From positions 1,383,501 to 1,447,500 of the forward strand of contig NZ_JAGIOR010000001.1 of NCBI RefSeq assembly GCF_017876795.1: a stretch of 64,000 nt of DNA. Reading direction: 5' to 3'. Of the stretch, positions 6,591 to 15,223 are shown piece by piece. The translations under genes and the position numbers were made by a program. The notes beneath the pieces are model-generated. The model worked only from the letters and a program-made list of their open reading frames with translations, did not search any database and was not told the origin of the DNA. Each line of letters begins with the position of its first letter. Position 1 is the stretch's first letter. Source of the stretch: Rhizobium leguminosarum. Its GTDB lineage: Bacteria; Pseudomonadota; Alphaproteobacteria; Rhizobiales; Rhizobiaceae.

Positions 6591-7901
6591 ATGACAAAGT
6601 GTTCCTTTTTTCGCGCCATTTTGGTCGCTGCCGGTCTGATGACCGCTGCCATCTTCGCGACGCCGGCCAATGCGCTAGTTACTCTCGACATCCGAAAGGG
6701 CAATGTCCAGCCGATGCCGATTGCGGTGACGGACTTCCTGCAGGGCGATATGGGCGCACAAGTTTCGCAGGTGATCGCCGCGGATCTGCAGCGTTCCGGC
6801 CTGTTTGCCCCGATCAGCAAGGCGGCCTTCATTGAAAAGATCTCCAACCCGGACGCTTCGCCGCGTTTCGAAGACTGGAAGGTCATCAACGCGCAGGCGC
6901 TGGTCACCGGGCGGGTTACCCAGGAAGCGGATGGCCGTCTTCGCGCCGAGTTCCGGCTCTGGGACCCGTTCGCCGGACAGCAGATGACCGGCCAGCAGTT
7001 CTATACGCAGCCGGAAAACTGGCGTGGCGTCGCGCATATCATTGCCGATGCGATCTACAAGCAGATTACCGGGGAAGAGGGCTATTTCGACACTCGTGTC
7101 GTCTTTGTCTCCGAATCCGGCACCAAGCAGCAGCGCAAGCGCCAGCTGGCGATCATGGATCAGGACGGCTTCAACGTGCGGATGCTGACGGATGGCAGCG
7201 ATCTCGTGCTGACGCCGCGCTTCTCGCCGAGCCGGCAGGAAGTCACCTACATGTCCTTTGCCAACCAGCAGCCGCGCGTCTATCTGCTGCAGCTCGAAAC
7301 CGGGCAGCGCGAGGTCGTCGGCAATTTCCCCGGCATGACCTTCTCGCCGCGCTTTTCGCCGGATGGCCAGAAGGTGATCATGAGCCTGCAGCAGGACGCC
7401 AATTCCAACATCTATACAATGGACCTGCGCTCGCGCACGACAACGCGCCTGACCTCGACGGCTGCGATCGACACCTCGCCCTCCTATTCGCCTGACGGAG
7501 CGCGCGTCAGCTTCGAAAGCGACCGCGGCGGAAAGCCGCAGATCTACGTGATGAATGCCGATGGCTCGGGCCAGACCCGTATTTCCTTCGGCGACGGCTC
7601 CTATTCGACGCCGGTCTGGTCGCCGCGCGGCGATCTCATCGCCTTCACCAAACAGGCCGGCGGCAAGTTCTCGATCGGCGTGATGAAACCGGATGGGTCG
7701 GGCGAGCGCATCCTGACGACCGGCTTCCACAATGAGGGCCCGACCTGGGCGCCGAACGGCCGCGTGCTGATGTTCTTCCGCCAGGCGGCAGGCGCAGGTG
7801 GTCCGCAGCTCTATTCGATCGATCTGACCGGTTACAACGAGCAGCTTGTGAAGACGCCGAGCTACGGTTCCGATCCGGCCTGGTCGCCGCTTATGGAGTA
7901 G
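6591..7901 (+). CDS. tolB: Tol-Pal system periplasmic beta-propeller TolB
   Basis: TolB has 436 residues with a signal peptide ending ATPANA (about residue 29). An N-terminal alpha/beta domain is followed by a six-bladed WD40-like propeller with repeated [28 protein letters not shown] blades. It binds Pal and peptidoglycan-associated partners and receives TolA. AAGG lies 8 bases before the ATG. It closes the tolQRA-tolA-like-tolB run; pal follows after 152 bp with its own likely promoter. Confidence 0.95.
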
Positions 7902-7986
7902 GCAATGCGTTGCTGCCTTCATGTCGCCCCAAAATCATGGAAATCGGCGACCAAGGGACAAATCAGTAATTCGTTAACCATAATTT

Positions 7987-8002
7987 TTGAGGGGCGGTTA
8001 AC
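7987..8002 (+). promoter_or_regulatory. CtrA-like box upstream of pal
   Basis: TTGA-N7-TTAAC at 7987-8002 is one mismatch from the CtrA full site. A further TTAACCATAAT at 7974-7984 is identical to an 11-base stretch before tolQ (3621-3631). The site is about 50 bp before the pal ATG. Binding is an inference from motif only. Confidence 0.35.
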
Positions 8003-8053
8003 CGAGTGCGGTTACTGTCCGGAAACCCTGATGAACCCGCAAGGAGACCGGCC

Positions 8054-8587
8054 ATGAGCCGAATTCATACCCCGGCAATGAGCCGCATGCAGAATTTCGC
8101 CCGCAACCCCGTCATGATCGCGCTTGTCGCCGGTCTCGCGCTTGCGAGCTGCGCCAAGAAGCCGCCGAACAGCGCCGGCGATCTCGGCCTCGGCACCGGT
8201 GCGGGTGGCGCTGCAACACCGGGCTCGGCCCAGGACTTCACCGTCAATGTCGGCGACCGCATTTTCTTCGACACCGACTCCTCGTCGATCCGCGCCGATG
8301 CTTCGCAGACGCTCGACCGTCAGGCCCAGTGGCTCGGCCGCTACCCGAACTACCAGATCACCGTCGAAGGCCATGCCGACGAACGCGGTACACGCGAATA
8401 CAACCTCGCGCTCGGCGCCCGCCGTGCGGCTGCCGCCAAGGATTATCTCGCTTCGCGCGGCGTCCCGGCGCAGCGCCTGAAGACGATTTCCTACGGTAAG
8501 GAACGTCCGGTTGCCGTCTGCGACGATATTTCCTGCTGGTCGCAGAACCGCCGCGCGGTCACGGTTCTCGGCGGCGCCGGCATGTAA
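8054..8587 (+). CDS. pal: Peptidoglycan-associated lipoprotein Pal
   Basis: Pal has 177 residues and is an outer-membrane lipoprotein. After a signal sequence the lipobox LASC places the lipidated Cys near residue 33. A linker then leads to an OmpA-type peptidoglycan-binding domain (about 70-175) with the typical VEGHADERGTREYNLALGARRA element that binds diaminopimelate. ATG 8054 is chosen because AAGGAG lies 7 bases upstream; the open frame starts earlier at a GTG. It works with TolB and the TolQRA motor in outer-membrane invagination at division. A strong hairpin terminator follows. Confidence 0.95.
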   Translation: MSRIHTPAMSRMQNFARNPVMIALVAGLALASCAKKPPNSAGDLGLGTGAGGAATPGSAQDFTVNVGDRIFFDTDSSSIRADASQTLDRQAQWLGRYPNYQITVEGHADERGTREYNLALGARRAAAAKDYLASRGVPAQRLKTISYGKERPVAVCDDISCWSQNRRAVTVLGGAGM

Positions 8588-8612
8588 TTGCCGACTTGGT
8601 TCGCTTTCGGAA

Positions 8613-8644
8613 GGCGGTCCCATCAGGGGCCGCCTTTTCTTTTT
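8613..8644 (+). terminator. Rho-independent terminator after pal
   Basis: A 9-bp stem (8613-8621 with 8626-8634, one mismatch) and an ATCA loop are followed by a T-rich run to 8644. It lies 25 bp past the pal stop and separates pal from ybgF. Confidence 0.8.
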
Positions 8645-8746
8645 GACCACACTTTGGCCAGACTCCGTTGCTTTTTGACAGCAATTGGAAAAATCTCCTG
8701 TTCGTGTCATCGAGGCGCGAAGAATCACTGAGACAGGACGATACAT

Positions 8747-9730
8747 ATGAAGAAACTTGTCGTGGCAGGCATGCTGTGCCTCGCGGCCGTGACCGGGAGC
8801 GAGCGGACGGCCTATTCGGCCTCGTTCTTCGGGCTGCATCTTGGCGGACGATCCGCGGAAAACCAACCGGCACCGCCGGTCATCAAGGTGCAGAGCGGCG
8901 ATGCCGAGGTCCGCGTGCAGCAGCTCGAAGAGCAACTGCGGCAGCTGAACGGCCGGATCGAGGAGATGAGCTTCCAGCTGCTGCAGATGCAGGAGACGAT
9001 CCGCAAGCAGCAGGAAGACAATGAATTCCGCTTCCAGCAGTTGGAAAAGACGGGCGCCGGCAGCGGTGCCGCCAAGGCTCCCGTCAAGAAGAGCGAAACC
9101 GATGCCGGTCCGGCGGCTTCCGGCGGCGATGACATCGCCAAGGTGATCCAGGCACCGCAGGGAGCCGAAATGGCTCCCTCCACCGACGTGCCTAGCAATA
9201 GCGGCCTCGGCCAACCGCCGAAGGAACTCGGCTCGATCGATTTCGATCAGAAGGGCAATGCGATCGGCGGAACTGTCGATGAAAATGCGGGGATCGGCTC
9301 CGGCCCGGTTCCCAATGCCGCCACTCCGCAGCAGACCGCATCGCTCGGTGGTGAAGCGGACCAGTACAAGTCGGCCTATGGTCACGTCTTGTCCGGCGAT
9401 TACAGCACGGCCGAACAGGAATTCACGCAGTACATCACCCGTTACCCGAGCAGTGCGCGGGCGGCGGACGCCAATTTCTGGCTTGGCGAGGCGCTCTATT
9501 CGCAGGGCAAGTACAATGAGGCGGCGAAGACTTTCCTCAATGCGCATCAGAAATACGGCACATCGGAAAAGGCGCCTGAGATGCTGTTGAAGCTCGGCAT
9601 GTCGCTAGCTGCTCTAGACAATACCGAAACGGCCTGTGCGACGCTGCGCGAAGTCTCGAAGCGTTATCCCAAGGCTTCGCGTGCCGTCATAAGCAAGGTT
9701 GCGAGCGAACAGAAGCGTCTCGCCTGCTAA
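8747..9730 (+). CDS. ybgF: Tol-Pal system protein YbgF (CpoB)
   Basis: The 327-residue periplasmic protein begins with a signal peptide ending near residue 25 (TAYSA). A Gln/Glu-rich coiled coil (about 45-105, LEEQLRQLNGRIEEMSFQLL) and a low-complexity linker come next. The C-terminal TPR domain (about 210-325) contains SGDYSTAEQEFTQYI and ANFWLGEALYSQGKYNEAA. In E. coli CpoB links Tol activity to peptidoglycan synthesis by PBP1B. It follows the pal terminator and is separated from tilS by 11 bp, so the two are likely co-transcribed. Confidence 0.92.
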   Translation: MKKLVVAGMLCLAAVTGSERTAYSASFFGLHLGGRSAENQPAPPVIKVQSGDAEVRVQQLEEQLRQLNGRIEEMSFQLLQMQETIRKQQEDNEFRFQQLEKTGAGSGAAKAPVKKSETDAGPAASGGDDIAKVIQAPQGAEMAPSTDVPSNSGLGQPPKELGSIDFDQKGNAIGGTVDENAGIGSGPVPNAATPQQTASLGGEADQYKSAYGHVLSGDYSTAEQEFTQYITRYPSSARAADANFWLGEALYSQGKYNEAAKTFLNAHQKYGTSEKAPEMLLKLGMSLAALDNTETACATLREVSKRYPKASRAVISKVASEQKRLAC

Positions 9731-9741
9731 GGTCTTCCGGC

Positions 9742-11223
9742 ATGTCTCCGGAAGCCCGATCGCCGCAAGAGGCGATCCTCCAGTTTCTCACCTCGCTTCA
9801 AAGCCCTGCACGCATTCTCGTCGCGATATCGGGCGGCAGCGATTCCACCGGCCTGCTTCTCCTCCTCGATGAAGCCGTGAAGGCCGCGCCTCATCTCAAA
9901 ATTTCCCTATGCGCTGCGACCGTCGACCATGCGTTGCGCGCCGGCTCCGCAGACGAGGCGCATGCAGTCGCAGCCCTCTGCACCTCGCGCGGCATTCCAC
10001 ACACTATCCCGACCTGGCAGGGCGACAAGCCGAAAACCGGCATCATGGCCGCGGCCCGCGAGGCGCGTTACGGCCTTCTGGCCGAAGCGGCGGAAGCGCT
10101 TGGCGCCGATCTCATCGTCACCGCCCATACACTCGACGACCAGCGCGAAACACTTGCCATGCGCGGCATGCGAACGGAGCAGGTTTCGACCGGCATTGCC
10201 GATGCGGTGCTCTTCAACCGGCATTTCTGGGTCCTGCGGCCGCTTCTCTTTTCCAGCCGGGCGGATATCCGCACTTTCCTCAGCGAGCGGGGCGTGCCGT
10301 GGATCGACGATCCGAGCAATGAGGATGTGAAGTACGAGCGCGTGCGGATCCGGCGGCGCCTTTCGACCGATGCAGGTCCTGAGAAAAATATCCCCAGGGC
10401 CTGGGAAGATCGACTGGCGCTTTCGGCCAAGGCCGCAGACTGGCTGGATCGTCACTTCAGGCTTCACGGCGGCCTGCTGGGGCAGGTGATGCCGGACGGG
10501 TTGCGGCAGGATCGGGCAGTCCTCGACTATGCGCTCGGCCGTCTGACAGCCGTTTTCGGCGGGCAGCCGTTTGCGCCGGGGAGGGCGCATATGGAGCGCC
10601 TTCTCTCATTTGCCAGCGGCAGCCAGCCGGGACGGATGACCGCCGGCAGGGTGGTGTTCGATCTCAGGCGTGACGGGCTTTATCTCACGCGCGAGAGCCG
10701 GGGGATCTTGCCGCTGGTGTTGCGGCCAGGAGAGGCGGGGGTTTGGGATGGGAGGTTCGAGGCAATAAACGGGTCTGGAACGACAGTAAAGATCGAGGGG
10801 CAGGCCGCCGCGCGCTCCTCCCTCATTCCTGTCCTCGGGCCTGACCCGAGGGATGTCACAGGAATCCAGCCACCGCGCGTCGGCGCGGTGAATGACCTTA
10901 CAACGCATGAAGAGTCTCCCGCGCCCAAGGACTTGGGCGCACTGGATTCCTGTGACGAGCACAGGAATGAGGGAGGATGGGGCGCGGGCCTGCCCAAGGC
11001 CGCGTGGAAGCGCGCCATCGCCTCGGCGCCGGTGTTATCCGCCGACGGAACCATTCTATCGCAGGAATCTGCGCCGACGATCGACCTAACGCCTTATTTC
11101 GCACCCTTCGACCGCTTTTTGACACGATTTGATTTCATCTTTGCTGACAGGCTTTCGGCGGTTTTCGCAACGGCGCCCTATCCGAGACCGCCTTTAAGAA
11201 GTATTGACGGAAAAACCATCTGA
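9742..11223 (+). CDS. tilS: tRNA(Ile)-lysidine synthetase TilS, with an inserted 54-codon palindromic repeat
   Basis: TilS converts the CAU anticodon of tRNA-Ile2 to lysidine so that it reads AUA. The N-terminal PP-loop ATPase motif is clear (LVAISGGSDSTGLLLLL, about residues 30-45). It is 493 residues long, whereas without codons 359-412 it would be 439, nearer the usual length. Those 54 codons are exactly a 162-bp palindromic repeat (10816-10977) read in frame, inserted in the C-terminal region where sequence conservation is weak. The gene stays open through the repeat, so the enzyme probably tolerates the extra peptide. AAGG precedes ATG 9742. Confidence 0.92.
   Translation: MSPEARSPQEAILQFLTSLQSPARILVAISGGSDSTGLLLLLDEAVKAAPHLKISLCAATVDHALRAGSADEAHAVAALCTSRGIPHTIPTWQGDKPKTGIMAAAREARYGLLAEAAEALGADLIVTAHTLDDQRETLAMRGMRTEQVSTGIADAVLFNRHFWVLRPLLFSSRADIRTFLSERGVPWIDDPSNEDVKYERVRIRRRLSTDAGPEKNIPRAWEDRLALSAKAADWLDRHFRLHGGLLGQVMPDGLRQDRAVLDYALGRLTAVFGGQPFAPGRAHMERLLSFASGSQPGRMTAGRVVFDLRRDGLYLTRESRGILPLVLRPGEAGVWDGRFEAINGSGTTVKIEGQAAARSSLIPVLGPDPRDVTGIQPPRVGAVNDLTTHEESPAPKDLGALDSCDEHRNEGGWGAGLPKAAWKRAIASAPVLSADGTILSQESAPTIDLTPYFAPFDRFLTRFDFIFADRLSAVFATAPYPRPPLRSIDGKTI
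10816..10977. repeat. 162-bp mosaic palindromic element inside tilS
   Basis: The outer inverted repeats are perfect over 17 bp (10816-10832 and 10961-10977). A second nested pair of 15 bp is perfect (10855-10869 and 10942-10956). Three hairpins lie inside: 10833-10851 (7-bp stem), 10871-10890 (8-bp stem, GTCG loop) and 10921-10940 (9-bp stem). The layout is that of bacterial mosaic or interspersed palindromic repeats common in rhizobia. The length is a multiple of three, begins on a codon boundary and contains no stop in the tilS frame. A shorter, degraded relative lies at 14999-15058. Confidence 0.88.
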
Positions 11224-11320
11224 CCTGGGGGATCGCCTTGGCAATCGCACGGCGCAACCCTATGTTAGATACGAATAAGACGGTCGCCATGAGGCGGCTG
11301 TTCCAGTGCTGGGGAGTTCA

Positions 11321-13249
<1,929 letters not shown>

Positions 13250-13270
13250 GCGGCTAGCACCATCTTGAAC

Positions 13271-13308
13271 AAGGCCGGATTTCCCAAACGGGAGACCCGG
13301 CCTTTTCC
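13271..13308 (+). terminator. Terminator after ftsH
   Basis: An imperfect long stem (AAGGCCGG ... CCGGCCTT) with an AAAC-containing loop ends in TTTT. It begins 21 bp past the ftsH stop. Confidence 0.65.
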
Positions 13309-13491
13309 ATTGGTAACGGGATATAATCATTTTTCTTGCTAATTTACGTGCTGATAGCCTCATTTTGTGGCATTCCGCTGAATTGAGGCAAGCATGAATC
13401 ACGCTCCTGGATGAACGACATTCCATGGAAGCCGGATTCGCTTGGAACGGTGCGCTGCCTTGAATGGCGCGCGGAAAGCGCAGGAGTGCAG

Positions 13492-14844
13492 ATGAAAAGA
13501 CGCTATTTCGGTACGGACGGCATTCGTGGCCAATCCAACGTCTTCCCGATGACGCCAGATCTCGCTATGCGGGTCGGCATTGCCGCCGGCACGATCTTCC
13601 GCCGCGGCAACCATCGCCACCGTGTCGTCATCGGCAAGGATACGCGTCTTTCCGGTTATATGCTTGAGAACGCCATGGTCGCGGGCTTCACGGCTGCCGG
13701 GCTGGATGCCTTTATTCTCGGCCCGATTCCGACGCCGGCCGTCGCCATGCTGACGCGCTCGCTGCGCTGCGATATCGGTGTGATGATTTCGGCTTCGCAC
13801 AATCCTTACGAGGATAACGGCATCAAACTCTTCGGTCCCGATGGCTACAAGCTTTCCGACGACCTCGAAACCGAGATCGAGGACCTGCTTGAAAAGGACC
13901 TGAACGCGCAGCTCGCCAAATCCGACGATATCGGCCGCGCCAAGCGCGTTGACGGCGTGCATGACCGCTATATCGAACATGCCAAGCGCACGCTGCCGCG
14001 CGATGTGACGCTGCAGGGCCTTCGGATCGCGATCGATTGCGCCAATGGTGCTGCCTACAAAGTGGCACCCGCCGTGCTCTGGGAGCTCGGTGCCGAGGTC
14101 GTCACCATCGGCAACGAGCCGAACGGCACCAATATCAATCTCAATTGCGGCTCCACCAGCCCCGTCGCGCTTCAGAAGAAGGTCGACGAGGTGCGCGCCG
14201 ATATCGGCATCGCTCTCGACGGCGACGCGGACCGCGTGATCATCGTTGACGAAAACGGCTCGATCGTCGATGGCGACCAGCTGATGGCCGTCATCGCCGA
14301 GAGCTGGGCCGAAAACCAGCAGCTGCGCGGCAACGGCATCGTCGCCACCGTGATGTCCAATCTCGGCCTCGAACGCTTCCTCGACGAGCGCGGCATGGCG
14401 CTTGCCCGCACGCGGGTCGGCGATCGCTATGTCGTCGAGCATATGCGCCAACACAATTACAATGTCGGCGGCGAGCAGTCGGGCCACATCGTGCTTTCGG
14501 ATTACGGCACGACAGGCGATGGTCTCGTCGCAGCGCTGCAGATCCTGGCCGCGGTCAAGCGCACCGGCCGGACCGTCAGCGAGGTCTGCCGCCGCTTCGA
14601 GCCGGTGCCGCAGCTCCTGCGCAATGTCCGCATCAGCGGCGGCAAGCCGCTGGAGGATATCCAGGTGCAGAAGGCGATCGCCGATGCCGAAGCCGAGCTC
14701 GCCAAGAACGGCCGCCTGGTCATCCGCCCCTCGGGCACCGAGCCGCTGATCCGCGTCATGGCCGAGGGCGACGACCGCGCGCAGATCGAGCGCATCGTCA
14801 ACGAGCTGATCGGCACGATCTCGAACGTTCGAACCGCCGCCTGA
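13492..14844 (+). CDS. glmM: Phosphoglucosamine mutase
   Basis: GlmM (450 residues) interconverts glucosamine-6-phosphate and glucosamine-1-phosphate, feeding UDP-GlcNAc for peptidoglycan and lipopolysaccharide. It begins [13 protein letters not shown]. The phosphoserine loop is [15 protein letters not shown] (active Ser near residue 102), the metal loop is LDGDADRVI and the phosphate-binding site [12 protein letters not shown] is near the end. ATG 13492 is preferred because AGGAG lies about 5 bases upstream and the family begins here; an open upstream extension of 27 codons is not conserved. It follows ftsH after a terminator and so is probably transcribed on its own. Confidence 0.97.
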
Positions 14845-15223
14845 GTCGTTGATGCTCGGAGAATGGGCGGCTCCTCTCTCCGCCCTCAGGATCAGGCTGA
14901 TCGGTGTGCCGTGCGGCTGATGGGCTGATCGACGTGCTTTGCTCGTGAAGCTTCGTTCGACGCTGCGCTCCATGGCAGAAAATCTAGCGCAAGTATCAAC
15001 CCTCTCTCCCTATTTCTGTGACGAGCGCAGGTGAGGGAGGGTGAGGCGAGCGTGCCCACCAACTTGCGGCAATCCATGTTTCCTCTACCGGAAGCTTCAA
15101 GATCTACGGTAAATAATCGTGGTTAAGTAGCTTTTAACGTTTCCCATTCATTATCCATCCGAAGCGTATCAGTTTGGCAGCGACTTGAGCCTGCCGACGC
15201 AACGGGATTTTGGAGTGGGATCC
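14845..15223. other. Intergenic region glmM to outer-membrane protein gene: degraded repeat and CtrA-type box
   Basis: No convincing gene is seen in these 379 bp. A GC-rich stretch at 14890-14935 repeats GCTGATCG/GGGCTGATCG short motifs. At 14999-15058 a sequence resembles the right half of the palindromic element inside tilS (TCTGTGACGAGCGCAGG then GAGGGAGGGTGAGGC). At 15123-15138 there is a perfect CtrA-type site, described separately. Confidence 0.6.
15123..15138 (+). promoter_or_regulatory. Perfect CtrA-type full site TTAA-N7-TTAAC
   Basis: TTAAGTAGCTTTTAAC matches the alphaproteobacterial CtrA consensus TTAA-N7-TTAAC exactly. It lies about 86 bp before the ATG of the outer-membrane protein gene, a plausible promoter-proximal position. 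Binding is inferred, not shown. Confidence 0.5.

Follow-up and report, generated by a model that had tools for sequence, protein, structure and literature searches.

Coding palindromes are known from Rickettsia and Wolbachia; there, the presence of copies in numerous genes obscures the history of any single insertion. Here, we describe a palindromic element translated within tilS, which encodes tRNA(Ile)-lysidine synthase, an enzyme essential in other bacteria, and which lies in a 64,000-nt stretch of Rhizobium leguminosarum DNA (NCBI RefSeq assembly GCF_017876795.1, contig NZ_JAGIOR010000001.1, positions 1,383,501 to 1,447,500 of the forward strand), referred to below as the window and used for all coordinates. 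In much of the R. leguminosarum/etli species group, the same place in tilS holds the element in either of two orientations, each almost always read in its own open frame, and at least many of these alleles appear to descend from one copy that was turned round.

The closest described systems, as far as the accessible portions of the sources go, are the Rickettsia palindromic elements (RPE; Ogata et al. 2000), which are 105-146 bp long, occur both between genes and in frame inside conserved genes, and are translated; the RPE-bearing enzyme that was tested, Gmk, stays active, and a Wolbachia counterpart exists (PMC2229807). The tilS element appears to resemble these by way of working only, being a palindrome found both in intergenic positions and in frame within a gene, where it is translated, and the comparison with RPE made in a preliminary description of this DNA was apt. 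It differs in belonging to free-living rhizobia, in being nearly restricted to one host gene and in showing both orientations, with their open frames, at one site. Among rhizobial repeats, RIME (Rhizobium-specific intergenic mosaic elements) and the Sinorhizobium A/B/C and Sm repeats are dispersed and structured and, in the portions available, are described as intergenic (PMC2573895, PMC2245857). The repeat family of the tilS element is also rhizobial, dispersed, structured and mainly intergenic, with matches in 67 Sinorhizobium plasmid records, and, compared by description only, it may be one of these repeats or a relative of them. In four genomes, 3.3-kb loci around a chvG-type gene (PF13756), which we take to be a marker for the RIME locus, matched the element over no more than 15 nt. 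Enterobacterial RU-1, RU-2 and RU-3 and the Correia miniature inverted-repeat transposable elements (MITEs) of Neisseria are small inverted-repeat elements with open frames inside genes, and the accessible text of those accounts does not mention for them the same-site switch of orientation present in tilS (PMC2759123, PMC2229807). Nematomorpha mitochondrial genes likewise hold inverted repeats in coding genes, the difference being that, on the available part of that report, those palindromes are mitochondrial, perfect and apparently not a dispersed family (PMC6649704). The literature on such elements in rhizobia, Rickettsia or tilS, mostly open-access and accessible in part, yielded no description of one inside rhizobial genes.

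The tilS reading frame runs uninterrupted for 493 codons, and its product matches the PP-loop family PF01171 in Pfam (E 3.1e-43); a fold search with TilS covers mainly residues 3-319, the insert lying outside the covered part. The preliminary description, made from the sequence alone, had proposed an in-frame palindromic repeat in this gene, and that proposal is borne out by the uninterrupted frame together with the inverted repeats and the fold. Briefly, the element is a 162-nt palindromic segment whose nested 15-nt arms are complementary at 100% in an inverted-repeat search, and its minimum-energy fold shows 17 outermost pairs and three strong inner hairpins. The features are as follows.

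9742..11223, + strand: tilS, tRNA(Ile)-lysidine synthase, host gene, 493 codons
10816..10977, + strand: translated palindromic element, forward orientation, frame a, codons 359-412 (inverted repeats, fold, homologous copies)
10816..10832, + strand: left outer arm, 17 nt (outermost pairs of the fold)
10833..10854, + strand: optional hairpin module; relatives have it in one arm or the other, in both or in neither (fold; alleles read by eye)
10855..10869, + strand: left nested arm, 15 nt (inverted-repeat search)
10870..10890, + strand: inner hairpin 1, GC-rich (fold; at one pair, compensatory change is seen in 6 of 22 non-tilS copies)
10891..10920, + strand: central spacer, or 'tag', the variable part distinguishing copies (alignment of 58 cores; tag scans)
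10921..10940, + strand: inner hairpin 2, GC-rich (fold)
10942..10956, + strand: right nested arm, 15 nt (inverted-repeat search)
10961..10977, + strand: right outer arm, 17 nt (outermost pairs of the fold)

The RNA fold reaches -108.1 kcal/mol, whereas shuffled sequences average -57.4 and none of 200 is as stable (z -12.5), which rules out a chance hairpin, and the DNA fold gives z -13.4. The element has the terminal inverted repeats of a MITE; in Rfam its best match is sub-threshold, at 21 bits against a cut-off of 77.3. Covariation support for the fold is weak, because only three of 47 predicted pairs show compensatory change among 22 non-tilS copies, most pairs being invariant. By codon arithmetic, 10816 is the first base of codon 359 and 10977 the last base of codon 412, which fits the span of codons 359-412 given in the preliminary description; its word 'exactly' goes too far, the ends being not fixed to the base and no close empty allele being available. 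The 493 residues set there against about 439 without the insert agree with the nearest element-free relatives (L078, L080-L085, L087-L089), which have 431-444.

The segment is not private to this strain and takes varied forms across the species group. Relatives were the best 80 of 235 confirmed tilS loci from named genomes, making 81 genes with the window, and their alleles were classed by DNA and protein comparison, borderline rows being assigned by eye: 17 are forward, 20 reverse in frame b (Rb), one reverse in frame a (L056), one a remnant (L079) and 42 without the element. As with RPE, an in-frame insert in a conserved gene (38 of 81) stands beside a remnant and 42 element-free relatives. 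Forward alleles read like SSLIPVLVTGIQPPRVGAVND..APKDLGALDSCDEHRNEG and reverse ones like SPSFLCLSQESSAPKSLGAKD..RGGWIPVTSTGMRE; seven of the 17 forward alleles are trimmed or decayed, as are some Rb alleles, those that are full and forward being termed Fa below. The frame stays open to the usual DGK C-terminus in 37 of the 38 carriers, L091 ending differently, and 33 other unusual C-termini all belong to element-free tilS genes. Rb occurs in the complete record NC_008380.1 and the forward form in R. etli CFN 42. Automatic scoring of 69 further tilS regions of the genus, the window included (70 taken, L239 left out; the set covers part of the genomes scanned for the tag), called 27 forward and 17 reverse; the remaining 25 fell in neither class, among them trimmed and decayed forms and L232, which inspection shows to be reverse. 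These regions are not independent of the 81, because several come from the same genomes. A more distant tilS group (L226, L228-L232, L238, L240, L241, L245) has the element or its apparent remains in the same loop. An alignment of TilS among relatives, suggested in the preliminary description as a check, thus finds relatives with and without the segment and residues that are not conserved, rather than one conserved segment throughout; that description was right about the insert and overlooked its spread through the species group, its two orientations and frames, its deletions and its optional hairpins.

The two orientations correspond to two reading frames. The element consensus is free of stop codons in two of six frames, F1 and R2, one per strand; F1 is the frame of the forward tilS alleles and R2 that of Rb, with almost no others in tilS, while, of 23 non-tilS copies, 16 are open in F1, 14 in R2, 10 in R1, five in R0 and one in F2. 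The start phase is identical in all 10 Fa alleles and is another one in all 12 Rb alleles measured, a count that omits six of 18 Rb rows in which both arm motifs were not detected. An exact flip in place would leave the frame open in three of 10 Fa and none of 12 Rb alleles; a further shift of 1 nt, to the phase of the other class, would leave it open in nine of 10 and 11 of 12, respectively, and the opposite shift in none. Because flips stay open mainly with the matching shift, the tilS genes seem to show what survives a stop-codon filter, and, because exact flips are so rarely open, a phase-variation switch is disfavoured. Intragenic invertons recode a gene by flipping a segment within it that is bounded by inverted repeats; the change in tilS differs in lying between species, in that most exact flips would truncate the enzyme and in implying no invertase. 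No recombinase was recognized by eye among the open reading frames at 7500-14500, a region in which no dedicated search was made.

The central spacer provides the means of following individual copies. In an alignment of 58 cores (10 Fa, 16 of 18 Rb, one reverse in frame a and 31 non-tilS), the arms are near-uniform and the spacer varies by place. One tag found in many tilS alleles of either orientation has 19 matches in 18 of 148 genomes searched, at 3 mismatches, and 18 of these lie in or directly beside a tilS match (6 forward, 12 reverse); the nineteenth, in genome G028, lies between two genes that we take from their translated sequences to be ubiE and ubiB. A forward-spacer pattern has eight matches, all in tilS, six forward and two reverse. 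The Rb spacers (16 of 18 rows) are closer to the Fa medoid than the 31 non-tilS spacers are (p 0.0008; p = 0.0004 without the ubiE-ubiB copy), that of L059 being one base from it. Because the tag is common to both orientations, at least many forward and reverse alleles, namely the main forward and Rb lineages, would on the sequence evidence derive from one copy that was turned round, and that copy was probably inverted in place with a 1-nt shift.

Several observations pull the other way. The tag links only part of the alleles, its patterns having been derived from tilS alleles themselves: 18 tilS genes are matched and the window's genome has no match, the window's own spacer being too diverged, while its core has other forward tilS cores as its closest neighbours. 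Among the Fa and Rb spacers, several (Rb: L068, L069, L071) score no better than some non-tilS ones. The ubiE-ubiB copy (L149, 401-537) and the reverse tilS element of L058 agree at ~98% over 136 nt; copying between loci, apparently recent, therefore occurs, and re-insertion from a common donor is possible. Bare inversion is also insufficient, because Fa and Rb flanks differ over ~50 nt. Two or more independent insertions in opposite orientations into the same permissive loop, with open frames kept by selection and no inversion, would account for these differences in adjacent flank and start phase, for an Rb-like copy outside tilS and for the partial reach of the tag, as well as for a more distant tilS group with another flank and spacer in the same loop. 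Such a history fits poorly, however, with one tag present in both orientations in 18 tilS genes and matched only once elsewhere in 148 genomes, with insertion points that agree to 1 nt (by eye and from the start phases) and with the L059 spacer, and we consider it unlikely.

A candidate for plain inversion of a single copy in place is a pair from related genomes, L230 and L232, which share a 1871-bp region at 88% identity, with the arms and adjoining flanks common to both. Their elements are 112/114 identical once one is inverted and 87/117 as read, and the frame is kept. L056, from R. aethiopicum HBR26, is a comparable case; its core has diverged further, and its nearest cores belong to neither class. 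L230 and L232 are draft assemblies of ~40 and ~110 contigs, and both plain inversions (L232 and L056) come from drafts in which an assembly flip is possible; the L230/L232 case is thus strong but unproven, because arms of ~31 nt could mislead an assembler. Carried further, this would make all the differences in orientation errors of assembly at inverted repeats, since arms of this length can flip the core in short-k assemblies and L232 and L056 (a whole-genome-shotgun contig) are drafts. Against this, an exact flip of Fa would be closed by stop codons in seven of 10 cases and would keep phase a, whereas the 12 Rb alleles measured are without exception in the other phase; Rb alleles have linked flanks; and Rb occurs in the complete NC_008380.1, with the forward form in CFN 42. 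We regard assembly error as the source of the two orientations as extremely improbable.

In some reverse alleles, L058 and L061, read by eye, the palindrome runs outward into the flanks (CATACG on both sides). This flank complementarity would fit template-switch correction of quasi-palindromes.

Orientation does not follow the flanks of the gene. A quick tree built from the downstream flank, on the ftsH side, shows the two states intermingled, and, for 37 rows (17 forward, 20 reverse), 12 changes are required on this tree and 12 on the upstream one, which rules out a clean vertical history. Shuffling tests on the ftsH-side tree show no excess clustering of the full Fa rows (249 of 500 shuffles as low) and some clustering of the Rb rows (9 of 500). 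Differences linked to orientation are strongest close to the cassette, within ~54 nt on its left side and ~60 nt on its right (300 shuffles each), and linkage is nearly confined to the cassette. In the protein comparison, from which pairs with P0089, a reverse allele, were left out, TilS P0011 and P0079 are 99.4% identical upstream of the WDGRF motif and have opposite orientations. This pair and the scattered orientation are what recombination of a short cassette among species would give, and such movement of alleles by short-tract recombination is a further point that the preliminary description overlooked. Tempering this account, the flank trees are without bootstrap, and weak associations with orientation extend farther out in a few windows (p 0.03-0.05), among them 8641-9040 and 9441-9640 (p 0.03) and 150-180 nt to the right (p 0.04).

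Across the species group, variability at the locus peaks at 10641-10840, the 200 bp of tilS right upstream of the insert. For this reason, the tilS loop may be a recombination hot spot in itself.

At the protein level, the insert evolves nearly neutrally, with dN/dS of 0.74 and 0.84; the remainder of TilS has 0.19-0.34, and open non-tilS copies, read in the same frames, have 0.96-1.05. Its residues 362-405 have pLDDT <50 in the predicted structure, which points to a disordered loop and agrees with the added loop foreseen in the preliminary description. A conserved TilS domain is ruled out for the segment, the residues of relatives varying and the dN/dS being 0.74-0.84. That selection keeps the segment for its product, as a working part of TilS or as a regulatory structure in the mRNA, could be argued from a frame that is open in every element-bearing tilS examined, from the very stable fold and from persistence in many species; it is contradicted by a dN/dS close to that of the non-tilS copies, by the unrelated peptides and large deletions found at the same place and by the predicted disorder, and we judge it very unlikely. 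We read the insert instead as a tolerated selfish element, RPE-like in its working, with inversion inside the gene as the new feature.

The peptide is nearly peculiar to TilS. Among proteins of ~270-860 residues sharing words with the query, a search with the forward peptide (E up to 10) found 46, comprising 40 TilS, four di-heme oxidoreductases, a hypothetical protein and the unnamed P0121, and all 24 found with the reverse peptide at the same cut-off are TilS by name or PF01171; within these searches, the many different host genes typical of RPE are lacking. In the oxidoreductases (P0122, P0124, P0125 and P0126; PF06537), the forward element peptide stands at the extreme N-terminus before a likely signal sequence. 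Because it precedes this apparent signal sequence, a misplaced start codon is the likely cause. P0121 is a 416-residue predicted protein resembling four element copies in a row, with a reverse core and a frame-a reading.

Outside tilS, the element belongs to a dispersed family. Its ends, which the preliminary description had suggested searching for, recur in the window's own genome, where the 13-mer CTGGATTCCTGTG has 12 exact matches, two of them inside this element, and its reversed control none; four further copies are found at E <1e-27 and a fifth at 2.9e-20, along with many shorter pieces. A 140-nt consensus matches 103 of 148 genus genomes (E up to 1e-4), with at most five candidates scored per genome, so that copy numbers are lower bounds, and it matches 1200 places in 186 plasmid records, 113 of Rhizobium and 67 of Sinorhizobium. 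Like RPE, this is a palindrome of ~100-160 nt in several dispersed copies. In the 60 of 186 plasmid records listed with their annotation, from an incomplete gene table, the best place is without an annotated feature in 54 and the other six records are unannotated. Of the ten open reading frames overlapping copies in the window's own genome (among the seven longest at each of 16 places) that were run against Pfam, nine matched no family, and in the tenth a match to ribose-5-phosphate isomerase begins at residue 415, far from the copy; the other copies in this genome are taken as non-coding. The family is mainly intergenic as far as these plasmid records and Pfam runs go, as the preliminary description had supposed. 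Within the window, 15012-15040 is a short match to one element arm (87%, E 0.0125), just beyond a 477-residue open reading frame at 13411-14844 that is presumably glmM; it is perhaps a remnant copy.

Taken as a whole, insertion of one copy, inversion in place, recombinational shuffling and a tolerated peptide form the best explanation, and one that we hold to be probable. A copy of a dispersed, non-autonomous rhizobial palindromic repeat would, long ago, have inserted into a loop free of constraint towards the end of TilS, and would have been retained because its open frame adds a harmless, disordered peptide. The same copy would then have been turned round in place, its core flipped by replication template switching or by recombination between the long inverted-repeat arms, with no recombinase; the main forward-to-reverse change would need a 1-nt shift, bringing the reverse strand into its open frame. 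Gains of optional hairpins and deletions would have altered the length of the element, and homologous recombination over roughly 250-300 bp would have swapped forward and reverse versions among species. The route of inversion, the order and direction of these events and an unharmed TilS activity are what we infer. The stronger proposal, that one tilS copy was inverted in place more than once, recombinase-free, recoding ~20-45 residues each time with the gene kept open, we put forward tentatively, as a real possibility.

For annotation, the consequence is that Rhizobium TilS sequences and their alignments can include ~30-60 residues derived from a repeat. Because one gene, in dozens of sequenced soil bacteria, holds forward, reverse, trimmed and empty forms, three questions become directly testable here, namely flipping within a gene without an invertase, the tolerance of an enzyme for a foreign peptide and the passage of a non-coding repeat into protein. 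If repeated inversion of the one copy is true, the tilS loop would act as a lasting cassette, spanning species, where selfish palindromic DNA is read again and again as new protein.
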